Shown: one piece after another, positions 24,320 to 37,897 of the stretch
Layout: the number at the start of each line of letters is the position of its first letter
Position numbering within the stretch: position 1 is the first letter of the stretch
Origin: Desulfobacterales bacterium
GTDB lineage: Bacteria > Desulfobacterota > Desulfobacteria > Desulfobacterales > JAAELO01
Assembly (NCBI GenBank): GCA_024226555.1
Contig: JAAELO010000848.1
Span: forward strand, 1-64,000
Direction: 5' to 3'
DNA: 64,000 bases
The notes under the pieces: generated by a model
Database searches by the model: none
What the model saw: the letters and a program-made list of their open reading frames with translations, nothing else
What the model was told of the DNA's origin: nothing
Translations under genes and position numbers: made by a program

Positions 24320-25522
24320 ATGAAGATTTTACATACATCTGACTGGCATCTGGGCCAGAATTTTATGTCAAAAACAAGAAGAAAAGAACATGAATCTTTT
24401 CTTAAGTGGTTAAGAGAACTAATTGATGAAGAGAATATTGATGTTCTCCTGGTTTCCGGTGATATTTTTGATACGGGTAATCCTCCAAACTACGCTCTTG
24501 AACTCTATTACAATTTCCTTAAGGAAATATCAAAGAGTTCTATAAAATCGATAGTTATTACAGCTGGAAATCATGATTCAGTTTCAAACATCGAAGCACC
24601 TAAAGAGCTTTTAAAGCTTTTGAATATAAATGTTAAGGGAACAATAGATGCCGAATATCCAGGGGATAATCTGATTGAAGTTTCCCATAATGGACAGATT
24701 CAATGTTATATTTGTGCTGTTCCATTTATAAAAGAGAGAGATGTAAGATTTTCCATTGCAGGTGAAAGTTATGAAGAAAGAAATAAAGCATACTCAAGGG
24801 GATTTAAAAAATATTATAATGATATTTGTAGTTTAGCTGCAAAAAAACGAGGGGATAATAAAGTTCCCATTATTGGAATGGGCCATACTTTTGCAGCCGG
24901 TTGCAATACATCTGAAGGTGAACGTGAAATATTTATAGGAAACCTTGGGAAAATAACCGCAAACTCTTTTCCGGAAGAGTTTGACTATATAGCTCTTGGT
25001 CATCTTCATAATCCCCAAAAAGCTACTGATAATGAGTTAATTAGATATAGTGGGTCTCCCATATCACTTAGTTTCAGTGAATCAAGTTATGATAAACAGA
25101 TAATTCTGATTGATTTTAAAGATTATCCTGATGATGTGGAAATTGAATCGAAAAAGGTTCCTGAATTTCAGAAACTTTTAAGACTTAAGGGAGACAAAAA
25201 CTCTGTTTTATCATCTCTAAAAGAACTTAATGACAATGTCTGGGTAGAAGTTAATCTTATAAATAGCGTTCCAGACACAGCTTTCCTTGAGGAAATTCGT
25301 GAAATTGAAAAAGAAAATTCATTCGATATTCTTGCTGTGAAAAAATCTGATATGAACAGCTATCTTGTTAAACATGGCGAAAAAGATGTTCAAACCCTTT
25401 ATGATTTAACACCAAATGATGTGTTTGATAAAAGGATTACAAATCTTGAGGATGGGGAGAAAGAGCTTTTAAAAGATGCATTTAATGAAGTTCTTATGAG
25501 GGTAAATCATGAAAATTCTTAG
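24320..25522 (+). CDS. sbcD: SbcD-type exonuclease subunit
   Basis: A 400-aa metallophosphoesterase of the Mre11/SbcD family: ILHTSDWHLGQ (phosphodiesterase motif I), VLLVSGDIFDTGNPPNYA (II), VITAGNHDS (III), GHTFAAG and ALGHLHNPQ (IV-V). It forms the nuclease core of the SbcCD complex, which opens DNA hairpins and processes palindromes, of interest here because the genome is full of inverted-repeat elements. Stop overlaps the start of sbcC by 14 bases. A 53-bp miniature element sits in its leader. Confidence 0.96.
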   Translation: MKILHTSDWHLGQNFMSKTRRKEHESFLKWLRELIDEENIDVLLVSGDIFDTGNPPNYALELYYNFLKEISKSSIKSIVITAGNHDSVSNIEAPKELLKLLNINVKGTIDAEYPGDNLIEVSHNGQIQCYICAVPFIKERDVRFSIAGESYEERNKAYSRGFKKYYNDICSLAAKKRGDNKVPIIGMGHTFAAGCNTSEGEREIFIGNLGKITANSFPEEFDYIALGHLHNPQKATDNELIRYSGSPISLSFSESSYDKQIILIDFKDYPDDVEIESKKVPEFQKLLRLKGDKNSVLSSLKELNDNVWVEVNLINSVPDTAFLEEIREIEKENSFDILAVKKSDMNSYLVKHGEKDVQTLYDLTPNDVFDKRITNLEDGEKELLKDAFNEVLMRVNHENS

Positions 25523-28500
25523 CTTAAGATTTAAAAATTTAAACTCCCTTGCTGATGAGTTTCATTTGGATTTTGAAAATGGTCCTTTGGGGGAAGCGGG
25601 GATTTTTCTAATTAGTGGACCAACCGGTGCTGGAAAAACAACTATTTTAGATGCTATTTGTGTTGCTTTATATGAAAGAACACCAAGGCTTGAGGGTTCA
25701 GGTGTTCGAAACATTATGACCCAACAAAAGGGAGATTGTTTTTCAGAGGTTGAGTTCAATGTTAAGGATAAAATCTACAGATCAAGATGGACACTAAGAA
25801 GGGCTTATGGCAAAGCAACAGGAAATTTCCAGGATTCTGAAAGAGAGTTGTCTGTTTTAGAAGATGGCAACTTTGTTATTCTTGAAAATAAAAAGAAACT
25901 AATAAATAAAAAAACAGCAGATATAACTGGTTTGAATTTCGATAGATTCACAAGATCCATGCTACTTCCCCAGGGAAATTTTGCGGCTTTCCTGGAAGCA
26001 AAAGAAAATGAGCGGGCTGATCTTCTTGAAAAGATGACAGGTACGACAATTTATTCAGAAATTTCTCAGGAAACTTACAAGATCTATAAAGAGGAGCAGC
26101 AAAAATTTAACGGCCTTAAGGCTCAACTTGAAGATATTCTTCCATCAACTGAGGAAGAACTTGTAATTCTAAGAGAGAATAAAAAAAATACTGAGGAAGG
26201 TATTGGAGTTGTCACCAAAGAGATCTCCTCACTTCAGGACAAAGCTGACTGGCTTAAAACAATCGAAATATTAAAAATTGATATTGAGCGAACAATAAAA
26301 AGCCTTAATATTGTTGAAGAGAAAGCAAAAGAGAAAAACAATGATTTTTATAAATTAGAAAAAGCTCAGAAAGCTCAGGTATTTAAAAGTGATTATGATA
26401 AAATAGCACAGATGAAAAAGCTAATCACAAAAAAAGAGGAACACAGTGAGGATTTAAAACGTAAAAAGCCAGGTCTTTCCGAAGAGTCAAAACGATTAAA
26501 AAATGAGTTTGAATCCGAAACAACATCCTACAAATCCTTTAAAAAATTAAAAGAAGAGAAGATCGCTGCAATTGAAAAAGCGATAGTAAAAGACAGTGAA
26601 ATAAAGAGTACTAAAGAATCTATCTCAAATATTGCAAAAAATGAGGAGAGAAAAAAGCTATTATTAAAAGAGCTAACAAAAGATCTGGAAATAAATAAAA
26701 ATAATTTTCAAAGAGTAGGTAACGAAATAAAAGAAAGCAGTGATGTTTTGGAAGAGATTCAATCTTTTGCAAATATTGAAACCACACTATTCTTTCTTAA
26801 AGAGAAGGTGAAAGTATTAGATGCTAAATCAATATCCCTTTCAAAAGCAAAGGAAGATAATCAGAAGATCGTAACTACTCTTGCAAGATCCAAAGGTGAT
26901 ATTGAATCTAAAGAGAAAGATTTAATAGAGATAAGCAGTTCAATTGAGAGTTTTGAAAATGAGTTAAAAGAGATTAGTAAAAATATAGAATCACATTCAA
27001 AGAGCGATTCAGATCCTGAAAAAGATCTTGAAAAACATATGAAATCCATATCTTTCTTTGAAAGTTTAATCAAAACTGAGACTGAAATTGAAGAACTCAT
27101 AAAAGAGAAATTCAATATAACTGAAACTCTCACCAAAAATACCAGTTTTTTAAAGGATTATGAATCTAAGAGAGAGAAAATAAAAAATGATATTACTAAC
27201 ACTGAAAACACAATAAAGGAGTTTGAGGACAAACTTAAACAAGAACTTTTGATCTCAAAATATGAGGATGACAGAGCAAAACTTATCGAAAATGATCCCT
27301 GCCCCCTTTGCGGTTCCAAAGATCACCCTTTTAAAAGTATCACAACTAATGAGAATCAAACTGAGACAATATTAATTGATTATAAAGAAAAGCTTTCATC
27401 TCAATATAAGAATAAAGATTCTGAGAGTGAGAAGATCATAAAGTTAATGACTCAAAATGAACATTTAAATCGCAATTTATCAGTGTGTGATAACAATAGT
27501 ATAAAACAAAATGATATAAAATCTGAGTTGATAAAAACAAACGCTGAGCCTTTTTCACAAGATATATCAGAGTTGAAACAATCTCTTGATTTAAAAATTG
27601 ATGCGAAAAACGAACTTGAAAGAGAGATTAAAGAGTTAAAGTTACTTAACGAAAAATCATCTGTAATTAAGGATAAGATCTCAAAAGAGGAAAAAATTAA
27701 AGGTGAAAAGAGGTTAGCTCTTCAGAAAAGCCGCGATAATATCGTTTTACTGGAAACCGAAAAAAAAATATTGATCAAAAGCATCAAAGAGTACAATGAT
27801 AATATTGATCAGATTTCAACTGAGATTTCAGAAATAGCAGATAAATTTAAAGCTACCTATGAAAAAGGTGATGAAAATAAACTCATAGACTATCTTCAGC
27901 TTAAAGATAAGGAGTATAAAAGTCTTAAGGAAAATCTATCAAAACTTGAGAATAGTTCTTCTGTTTTAAAGGATAAAATTTCAATACAAAAAAATGATCA
28001 AAATAATATTGAAAGGGATTTAAAAGAGATTGATGAGAATTTAAAATCCTTTGATGAAAAGCTTGAGTCACTAAAAACAAAAAGAAATGAGATTTTAAAA
28101 GAGAAAAACATTATTCTTCTTAAAAAGGATCTGCAAAGAAAAAACCAGCTTTACAAAGATAATATATTAATGCTTGAGAAAAGAGAGAACTCTGTAAAAA
28201 CTGAACTTAAAGTAGTTACAGAAAAGCAGAAAGCAATTGATGATGAACTTGTTCAGATCAATAGTGATCTTAAAGCCCTGACATCAGAATTTCTGGAAAA
28301 CATAAAACTATCTGGTTTTGAAAGTGAAGCAGACCTTGCTAAAGATTTAATGGATGAAAACGATAAGAGAGAACTTGAAAAATTAAGAAAAGAGATCGAC
28401 GATGGATTGCTTAGAGAAAAAACAAGAATTGATGACCTTACAAAGAAACTTAATCTTAAAATTGAAGAGAAAAAAACTGATGCTGACATAGCTGATATTG

Positions 28501-29150
28501 AAGGAGAACTTAATACTGCCAGTTTAAAGCAGGATAATCTTAAAAAAGAACTATGGGAAATCAACAATAAATTAAAGATTGATACTGAGTTAAGGCAGAA
28601 AAAGCAGAAACAGATAGATAAAATAGAACTTCAGAGAAAAGAGTTTTCAAAATGGAGTCAGTTAAATGAATTGATAGGTTCCTTTGATGGAAAGAAATTC
28701 AGAAGATATGCCCAGGGACTGACACTTGAGTATTTGATAAACCTGGCAAATAAGCATCTGGTAAAGCTTAACAACAGATATTTCATGAAAAGAAAAGAGG
28801 GTGAGGATCTTGGAATTGATATTGTTGATGATTTTAAAGCTCAACTATCAAGACCTGTAAAAACACTTTCAGGTGGTGAATCTTTTCTTGTAAGTCTTTC
28901 TCTTGCTCTTGGTCTTTCATCCTTGGTAAGTCGTAACGTCAGGATCGATTCAATATTTCTTGATGAAGGTTTTGGTTCACTTGATAAAGACTCTATGGAA
29001 GTTGCTCTGGATGCGCTTGATAATTTAAATGCAACGGGTAAAACCATCGGTATAATTTCCCATATTGATTCTCTTAAAGAGAGGATTTCTGTTCAGTTAA
29101 GGGTAGATAGGAAATCCCATGGTGAGAGTACTCTTAGTTATGCTCTATAA
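25509..29150 (+). CDS. sbcC: SbcC/Rad50-type SMC-like ATPase
   Basis: A 1213-aa Rad50-like protein: Walker A GPTGAGKTTILDAIC (~36-50), long coiled coils rich in Lys/Glu, the zinc hook CPLC (~598-601), then ABC signature LSGGESFLVSLSLALGLSS and Walker B SIFLDEGFGSLD near the C-terminus. It partners SbcD; the pair is one operon with the PHP gene downstream. Its stop codon TAA overlaps the original ribosome-binding site of that gene. A segment of this gene (28231-28360) recurs in a decayed copy at 37431-37560. Confidence 0.96.
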   Translation: MKILSLRFKNLNSLADEFHLDFENGPLGEAGIFLISGPTGAGKTTILDAICVALYERTPRLEGSGVRNIMTQQKGDCFSEVEFNVKDKIYRSRWTLRRAYGKATGNFQDSERELSVLEDGNFVILENKKKLINKKTADITGLNFDRFTRSMLLPQGNFAAFLEAKENERADLLEKMTGTTIYSEISQETYKIYKEEQQKFNGLKAQLEDILPSTEEELVILRENKKNTEEGIGVVTKEISSLQDKADWLKTIEILKIDIERTIKSLNIVEEKAKEKNNDFYKLEKAQKAQVFKSDYDKIAQMKKLITKKEEHSEDLKRKKPGLSEESKRLKNEFESETTSYKSFKKLKEEKIAAIEKAIVKDSEIKSTKESISNIAKNEERKKLLLKELTKDLEINKNNFQRVGNEIKESSDVLEEIQSFANIETTLFFLKEKVKVLDAKSISLSKAKEDNQKIVTTLARSKGDIESKEKDLIEISSSIESFENELKEISKNIESHSKSDSDPEKDLEKHMKSISFFESLIKTETEIEELIKEKFNITETLTKNTSFLKDYESKREKIKNDITNTENTIKEFEDKLKQELLISKYEDDRAKLIENDPCPLCGSKDHPFKSITTNENQTETILIDYKEKLSSQYKNKDSESEKIIKLMTQNEHLNRNLSVCDNNSIKQNDIKSELIKTNAEPFSQDISELKQSLDLKIDAKNELEREIKELKLLNEKSSVIKDKISKEEKIKGEKRLALQKSRDNIVLLETEKKILIKSIKEYNDNIDQISTEISEIADKFKATYEKGDENKLIDYLQLKDKEYKSLKENLSKLENSSSVLKDKISIQKNDQNNIERDLKEIDENLKSFDEKLESLKTKRNEILKEKNIILLKKDLQRKNQLYKDNILMLEKRENSVKTELKVVTEKQKAIDDELVQINSDLKALTSEFLENIKLSGFESEADLAKDLMDENDKRELEKLRKEIDDGLLREKTRIDDLTKKLNLKIEEKKTDADIADIEGELNTASLKQDNLKKELWEINNKLKIDTELRQKKQKQIDKIELQRKEFSKWSQLNELIGSFDGKKFRRYAQGLTLEYLINLANKHLVKLNNRYFMKRKEGEDLGIDIVDDFKAQLSRPVKTLSGGESFLVSLSLALGLSSLVSRNVRIDSIFLDEGFGSLDKDSMEVALDALDNLNATGKTIGIISHIDSLKERISVQLRVDRKSHGESTLSYAL

Positions 29151-29164
29151 GGAAATTTAAATGA
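29149..29164 (+). promoter_or_regulatory. Orphaned ribosome-binding site and duplicated start codon of the PHP gene
   Basis: AAGGAA (29149-29154) followed by seven bases and ATGA (29161-29164) is a perfect translation start, but a miniature element now separates it from the PHP reading frame. ATGA is the left copy of the target duplication; the right copy is the present start codon at 29294. Initiation at 29161 would read into the element and be out of frame (133-base offset), stopping soon after. Confidence 0.85.
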
Positions 29165-29293
29165 GGGAATCTCTAATAACTCCTCTTTTCGCGAAATACT
29201 TTGTTATTTCCAAAAAAAACTGTAATAAAATCGGCTCGTTATTTTTGGAAATGCCTTGCATTTCATCCAAAATTTTAATTATTAGAGGTTCCC
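29165..29293 (+). mobile_element. Miniature element inserted exactly at a start codon, 129 bp
   Basis: Begins GGGAATCTCTAATAACTCC and ends ATTATTAGAGGTTCCC, with ATGA on each side (29161-29164, 29294-29297). Its terminal AGAGGT places GAGG five bases before the ATG at 29294, a substitute Shine-Dalgarno. Nearly identical in core to the copy at 16165. Confidence 0.95.
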
Positions 29294-30088
29294 ATGATAG
29301 ATTACCATCTGCACACTCCGTTTTGTAATCATGCTACCGGAAGCATGAGGGATTATATTGAATCCGCAATTAAAAAGGGTTTAGCTGAAATATGTTTTCT
29401 GGATCATCTGATCCTTGCAAAAGATCTCAAAGTACCTTCTATGATACCTTGTGAGGTCCCCCTTTATTTTCTTTCAATATCTGAATTAAAGAACTGTTAT
29501 AAAGATAAAATTAAAATAAGATCCGGACTTGAAGTGGATTTCTTCGAAAATAAAATGGATATAATAGAAGAAATAACAGGTGAATTTGCATTTGATGTTA
29601 TAGCCGGGTCTGTTCACTTTATTGAGATTGATGGAAAACTTATTAATATAGCAAGCAGAAGATCACTTGATGCCCGGAAAAACATCCATCCGGATGTGAT
29701 AAGAAAAAAATATTTTGAAAAATTAAACCTTATGATTGAGTGTGACTATTTTGATACAGTTTGTCATCTTGATTTGATAGACAGGTTTAAACATTCAGAT
29801 GGAAACACATCTGGTTATAGAGATATTTTAAAAAAAATTAAGAAGAAGGATAAGGTTTTAGAGATCAACACAGGTGGTTATTCACATAAAAAAGGGGCTC
29901 CATATCCATCTTTTGATATTATTAAGATGTGTTATGAAGAGGGCGTTAAGGTTACTCTTGGTTCCGATGCACATAAACCGATAGATGTTGGAAGCAAATT
30001 TAAAGAAACTATATCCATAGTCAAATCAATTGGATATAAAAATATTACAGGTTTTAATAAACAGAATAGCTTTGAAATAAAAATATAA
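29294..30088 (+). CDS. PHP-family phosphatase (histidinol-phosphatase type)
   Basis: This 264-aa protein has the PHP metal-site motifs of HisK-type histidinol phosphatases: DYHLHTPFCNHATGS, ICFLDHL, SGLEVDFFE, VIAGSVHFIE, DTVCHLDLIDRFKH and LGSDAHKP. It probably hydrolyses a phosphate monoester; histidinol phosphate is the standard substrate, but no his genes are near and its operon partners are sbcDC. The start is ATG 29294, whose ATGA belongs to the target duplication of the inserted element; translation now depends on GAGG inside the element or on read-through initiation. A truncated copy lies at 37558-37897. Confidence 0.9.
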   Translation: MIDYHLHTPFCNHATGSMRDYIESAIKKGLAEICFLDHLILAKDLKVPSMIPCEVPLYFLSISELKNCYKDKIKIRSGLEVDFFENKMDIIEEITGEFAFDVIAGSVHFIEIDGKLINIASRRSLDARKNIHPDVIRKKYFEKLNLMIECDYFDTVCHLDLIDRFKHSDGNTSGYRDILKKIKKKDKVLEINTGGYSHKKGAPYPSFDIIKMCYEEGVKVTLGSDAHKPIDVGSKFKETISIVKSIGYKNITGFNKQNSFEIKI

Positions 30089-37287: not shown

Positions 37288-37430
37288 TTCATAAAAATAA
37301 AGAAAAAAACATGTAGCCGAACTATATTAATTTGCCTTATAATATTCAATATTTAAATGTGAGTGACCTTTTTTTTTAAGAGATAGTAGGAAAAACATGT
37401 TATTATTGCTTAAAAATGTGTTTAACATAA

Positions 37431-37897
37431 AAACAATTGATGATGAGTTTGTTCAGATCAATAGTGATCTGAAAATCCTGACATCAAAATTTCTGGAAAA
37501 TATAAAACCTTCTGGTTTTGAAAGTGAAGCAAATCTTGCTAAAGATTTAATGGATAAGAAATAAATATTTTGAAAAATCAGACCTTTTGGTTGAGTGTGA
37601 CTGTTTTCATACAATTTGCCACCTTGATTTGATAGATAGGTTTAAACATTCAGATGGAAACACATCTGGCTATAGGGAGCCTCTAATAATTAGAATTTTT
37701 GATGAAAAACAAGGCGTAACAAAAAATAACGGGATGATTTTACTACAGTTTTATTTTTGTTATATCTGTGTTTCGCAAAAAGATCAGTTATTAGAGATTC
37801 CCTATAGAGATATTTTTAAAAAAAACATATTAAAATCCATTGATTTTAAAATAAAACAGGTTTTAATAAACAGAATAGCTTTGAAATTGAAATATAA
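37431..37897 (+). pseudogene. Decayed, internally deleted copy of the sbcC 3' region and PHP gene, split by an element
   Basis: Bases 37431-37560 match sbcC 28231-28360 (about 116 of 130 identical). From ~37558 the sequence jumps to the PHP gene (matching 29702-29822) up to its TATA, where a miniature element is inserted (37675-37802). It then resumes (37803-37830 against 29816-29843) and jumps again to the PHP 3' end (37856-37897 against 30046-30086). All junctions are deletions of an original duplication of the sbcC-php locus. No frame remains usable. Confidence 0.9.
37675..37802 (-). mobile_element. Miniature element inside the pseudogene, 128 bp
   Basis: Begins GGGAGCCTCTAATAATTAG and ends CAGTTATTAGAGATTCCC; TATA on both sides (37671-37674, 37803-37806). 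The intact PHP gene has a single TATA at the matching position (29816-29819), which gives a direct empty-site comparison and proves the 4-bp duplication. Confidence 0.96.

Follow-up and report, generated by a model that had tools for sequence, protein, structure and literature searches.

It is well established that mobile elements can carry promoters and terminators with them; an element that brings a ribosome-binding site (RBS) itself is, as far as found, much less documented. A terminal repeat acting as a Shine-Dalgarno sequence (SD) was not found in the open-access literature as covered by titles and the opening lines of abstracts, with subscription papers outside this scope; this is weak evidence of novelty. 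For Correia/NEMIS, RUP, ERIC and related MITEs, promoters, an IHF site, RNase III hairpins and fused frames are described in the available text (PMC2229807). The element analysed here lies in a 64,000-nt stretch of DNA from a Desulfobacterales bacterium (the window) and resembles these MITEs in its length class (100–200 bp), terminal repeats, target duplication, high copy number, an RNA hairpin formed by pairing of the ends, stop-free frames and effects on neighbouring genes; it differs in that the available text on those elements names no terminal repeat as an SD, and in its approximately 1,250 copies and 4-bp AT-rich duplication (PMC2229807). The pneumococcal BOX elements are likewise interspersed repeats by which reading frames arise or are lengthened, but in the portion of the account available the start codon comes from BOX itself and good SDs are lacking, whereas here a candidate SD is supplied to a pre-existing host start (PMC3049150). 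MITEAba12 is a 113-bp MITE for which short terminal frames with start codons and possible fusion to neighbours are discussed; the accessible part of that paper describes a small number of copies and no SD role (PMC6382973). The TAACTGA repeats of marine Beggiatoaceae are similar in lying genome-wide directly before start codons and over the SD position and, according to the text available, are dissimilar in being direct 7-mers with little SD character and not a transposable element (PMC4679880).

Insertion of a MITE in the start codon of the PHP gene

The features of the locus, in window coordinates, are as follows.

25509..29150, + strand: sbcC (exonuclease subunit), co-directional with and upstream of the PHP gene; open reading frame with NF007600/TIGR00618 and SbcC_Walker_B matches
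29149..29153, + strand: native SD AAGGA, 7 nt before the old ATG; from the sequence
29161..29164, + strand: left ATGA copy of the target duplication, with the old start codon at 29161–29163; from the sequence and the 4-bp rule of the family
29165..29293, no strand assigned: MITE of 129 bp without a transposase gene; from the sequence and the copies in the genome
29165..29179, + strand: left terminal repeat GGGAATCTCTAATAA (15 bp), predicted to pair with the right end in RNA
29279..29293, + strand: right terminal repeat TTATTAGAGGTTCCC (15 bp); from end matches and predicted RNA pairing
29285..29288, + strand: GAGG, candidate replacement SD, 5 nt before the ATG at 29294; from spacing statistics and the genome-wide test
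29294..29297, + strand: right ATGA copy of the target duplication, with the present start codon; from the sequence
29294..30088, + strand: PHP-domain gene, HisJ-like, 264 aa, intact, with the second ATG as start; from the reading frame and domain and homologue matches
29161..29328, + strand: leader frame of 55 codons that begins at the old ATG, crosses the whole element and stops inside PHP in another frame; from translation

Insertion of the MITE in the PHP start codon duplicated ATGA, so that the old and the new ATG are both present, and every coordinate checked in the original prediction agrees with the sequence. The TAA stop of sbcC was read directly at 29148–29150, and joining the flanks without the element yielded TAAGGAAATTTAAATGATAGATTACC, a complete start site. 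Also as predicted, the native AAGGA now lies 140 nt away from the PHP start and the GAGG of the element stands 5 nt before the second ATG; both were read directly, and the spacing falls within the 5–9 nt mode of the genome.

The PHP protein matched PF02811 (E 2.3e-22) and TIGR01856 (HisJ-like; E 3e-47, cut-off passed), and its frame aligned over the full length with homologues. The start at 29294, for which an internal one had been named as the alternative, is supported. No other start retains the HxH of the first PHP metal motif (H5 and H7): the next in-frame ATG (29345) falls after it, and upstream in the same frame TAA is followed by five sense codons, none of them a start. Homologues from Desulfobacterales MAGs also have their start at this residue (MIDYHLHT or MIDYHIHT). 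In several of the homologous loci examined the gene adjoins a divergent gene that looks radA-like from its sequence, and in none does it adjoin sbcC; a syntenic relative without the insertion was not found among them. A UBA11574 contig (L348) considered as a close relative (94% over 16 residues) was rejected, its upstream context being different and only the conserved motif shared. Homologues of other Desulfobacterales (L309–L315, L348) have no clear SD before the ATG, and the gene can thus live without one in other settings; in some of them a TATAAT-like stretch stands shortly before the ATG, a hint of leaderless transcripts. The window contains, at 37430–37897 and 8 kb from the intact copy, a further stretch of sbcC 3' sequence and PHP that is broken (pieces 87–89% identical) and interrupted by another copy of the MITE (37675–37802, target duplication TATA); it was discarded as an empty site, the junction being deleted there.

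Matches to the element ends numbered 47 within the window (2.55 expected) and, at up to 2 mismatches, 2,549 in the 7.69-Mb genome (44 for the reversed pattern), which gives approximately 1,250 copies. At up to 1 mismatch there were 1,983 ends in the genome itself and at most 5 in each of 57 other genomes of the order, the level of the reversed control; the family is thus absent (background level) from these relatives. Among 40 scored of 1344 candidates, 39 other places in the genome were 92–97% identical over nearly the whole query. The element is short (129 bp, with no room for a transposase) and multicopy, and has 15-bp terminal inverted repeats with one mismatch (G-U in RNA) and a target-site duplication; it is a MITE, that is, a non-autonomous DNA transposon. 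In 315 pairs of ends 100–320 bp apart, the flanking 4-mer was common to both sides in 135, as against 19 when flanks were rotated among elements. Exactly 4 bp of target duplication is the rule of the family; target flanks are AT-rich, most commonly TTAA, TTTA and TATA. A search of the genome with PF01609 for a cognate transposase returned six transposases, none with these ends, and three pairs of terminal repeats 2.74–2.76 kb apart with matching 4-mers, considered as an autonomous partner, were dismissed because they contain ordinary unrelated genes. A search of Rfam gave no match. Of 60 copies with a length of exactly 129 bp, 44 had at least one stop-free frame, as had 4 of 43 at 130 bp; the in-frame insertion into proteins that this suggested was dropped, as none of the 315 elements lies inside a called gene. 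In one further copy (L241, C198:139391) the element sits inside an SD (target duplication AGGA), and the SD is rebuilt on the gene side.

Gene starts beside GAGG and GAGA ends

Before genes with ATG starts, GAGG was found at -17 to -4 in 132 of 732 cases (15 in the control window), most commonly at a spacing of 5–9 nt, and this enrichment points to it as an SD motif in this genome. The 3' end of the 16S rRNA is absent from the assembly, in which matches cover model positions 9–800 of 1533 only. Read outwards, the ends of the MITE occur in two variants, AGAGG or AGAGA followed by TTCCC, and the GAGA variant was used as an internal control. Starts were called without an SD term, and a frame of at least 60 codons with a coding score above 20 was counted as a real gene.

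At 0–9 nt after exact ends in the whole genome, 98 ATGs and 12 genes were found for GAGG and 101 ATGs and 3 genes for GAGA; of the 12 genes after GAGG, the one at 9 nt is preceded by an AGGAG that lies outside the element. Raw ATG counts at 0–3 nt (53 and 44) carried no signal, which appeared at the gene level only. Genes starting 0–5 nt after exact ends numbered 11 for GAGG and 2 for GAGA (one of the latter with a frame of at least 610 codons), compared with 23 and 37, respectively, starting at 13–60 nt in a 2.24-Mb sample of the genome (Fisher p 0.004 for near versus far; 0.009 without the discovery case, the PHP gene of the window). With up to 2 mismatches in the 2.24-Mb sample, near starts were 9 versus 1 and far starts 43 versus 63 (p 0.005), a result that is not independent because the sample includes stretches chosen for GAGG or GAGA ends beside an ATG. 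A count of 6 versus 0 in stretches regarded as unselected was set aside, as two of the six are on contigs chosen for their GAGG ends. When scaled to the whole genome, the density of starts per nt at 0–5 versus 13–29 nt was 1.8 versus 2.0 for GAGG and 0.33 versus 3.8 for GAGA; from these densities, an insertion whose GAGG end lies between SD and start is tolerated, and one with a GAGA end hardly.

The 11 near genes encode PHP, an MFS transporter, a sigma-54 activator, a PhzF isomerase, TrpC, DusB, a WYL regulator, an AraC-type regulator, an S13 peptidase and two proteins without a Pfam match. In alignments to the family models, residue 2 of PhzF corresponds to profile position 1, residue 4 of TrpC to position 2 and residue 3 of DusB to position 1; with homology running from residues 2–4, those starts are right. 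At the sigma-54 activator (contig C799) the target duplication TATG doubles the start codon, the native GAGGA is left behind and GAGG stands 6 nt upstream of the new ATG, which makes this locus a second, independent instance of start-codon duplication.

The variant is confounded with the arm of the element (A or B), and the B arm may therefore matter for another reason. Among 532 exact ends in the 2.24-Mb sample, B ends were 161 GAGG and 52 GAGA, A ends 73 and 169, and unclassed ends 44 and 33, so that GAGG makes up 161 of 213 B ends compared with 73 of 242 A ends. Of the 11 near GAGG cases, 8 lie at B arms. In a test stratified by arm that omitted the discovery case, p was 0.015 against starts at 13–60 nt, 0.030 against those at 13–29 nt and 0.13 against all ends; for the B arm alone, near starts were 7:1 and far starts 11:9 (GAGG:GAGA; p 0.19). 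The recurrence of the arrangement at several other genes suggests, with statistical support and subject to the arm confound, that a gene can tolerate an insertion between SD and start when the end next to it is GAGG, and only rarely when it is GAGA.

RNA stem, old start and alternative readings

In the predicted fold of the region (-38.2 kcal/mol, z -4.18), the ends of the element pair over all 15 positions (one of them G-U), and the GAGG is fully paired, its partner being the CUCU of the left repeat. For the eight near GAGG genes with a left end, all four GAGG bases were predicted to be paired in five and three of four in one, and the motif was partly open in one and mostly open in another; the left end is missing in the remaining three, in two of which the contig ends there. 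An SD buried in this way should work poorly, and with the GAGG inside a 15-bp stem the element would not be a simple RBS cassette. Nor is the old ATG dead: its SD is still in place, and a frame of 55 codons starts there.

The reading preferred here, to which about an even chance is given, is that, with the MITE inserted in the PHP start codon, the GAGG of its right terminal repeat, 5 nt upstream of the ATG at 29294, would now serve as the SD of PHP. It would do so only while the 15-bp stem with the CUCU of the left repeat is open, and the likeliest opener would be a ribosome that loads at the intact old SD and ATG and translates through the left arm; the old start stands directly before that arm, and a ribosome loading there would have to cover or melt it, freeing the GAGG. 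The same old start and leader could act without the GAGG of the element, by translational coupling in which ribosomes start at the old ATG, translate the 55 codons, terminate approximately 32 nt into PHP and in part re-initiate at 29294. The intact old SD and ATG and a leader frame open across all 129 bp agree with this, but an open frame is unspecific, being common to 44 of 60 copies of that length, and at C799 the codons after the old ATG are GGG AAT CTC TAA, so that the leader there has just four codons; backward re-initiation over approximately 32 nt is moreover long, and coupling of this kind is considered unlikely.

It is likewise improbable that the main effect of the insertion is to silence PHP or reduce its expression, with the frame still intact only because the insertion is recent or little expression suffices. 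The burial of the GAGG in the stem (z -4.18), the native SD 140 nt away and the scarcity of starts just past the ends (at up to 2 mismatches, GAGG 9 and GAGA 1 at 0–5 nt versus 43 and 63 at 13–60 nt) would fit such an effect; PHP is nevertheless intact and full-length against its homologues while the second copy, at a distance of 8 kb, is broken, the closest of the element's other copies (among 40 scored of 1344) are 96–97% identical, so that this copy need not be brand new, and the same arrangement is found at the TrpC and DusB homologues. A promoter in the B arm, with PHP on a short or leaderless transcript from near the element end and the GAGG incidental, is the least probable of these readings and distinctly unlikely: near starts do lie mostly at B arms (8 of the 11 GAGG cases) and PHP homologues elsewhere have no clear SD, yet a consensus scan gave no promoter-like site in this orientation (one was found, on the other strand and downstream; 1.8 expected), and GAGA B ends showed no such excess (1 near and 9 at 13–60 nt, both small numbers).

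The original prediction of a portable RBS was partly supported: other genes do start 0–5 nt past GAGG ends and GAGG exceeds GAGA, but the GAGG is predicted to be base-paired and is confounded with the arm. The observation is real and more general than one locus, and the functional claim is plausible on the sequence evidence. Replacement of the native SD is supported as regards the genome-typical spacing of the GAGG, and is qualified by the native SD and ATG still present before the leader frame and by the 269 of 732 ATG genes, about a third, that have no SD core (present in 463 by the criterion used here), so that survival of a frame is no proof of SD substitution. The PHP frame, stated beforehand to be intact, is open over 264 aa; the accompanying claim that expression survived is drawn from the intact frame only.

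The approximately 1,250 copies with natural GAGG and GAGA ends form a natural experiment on whether the end of a transposon can replace an SD, and on the fate of genes where it cannot. In its widest form, to which only a small likelihood is attached, the proposal would be that the B arm of a high-copy MITE is a portable and switchable RBS, inserting between SD and start, swapping the SD for its own GAGG and hidden in the stem until ribosomes load at the displaced old start. If this were true, the MITE family would have rewired how translation starts at a set of genes, the trpC and dusB homologues among them.
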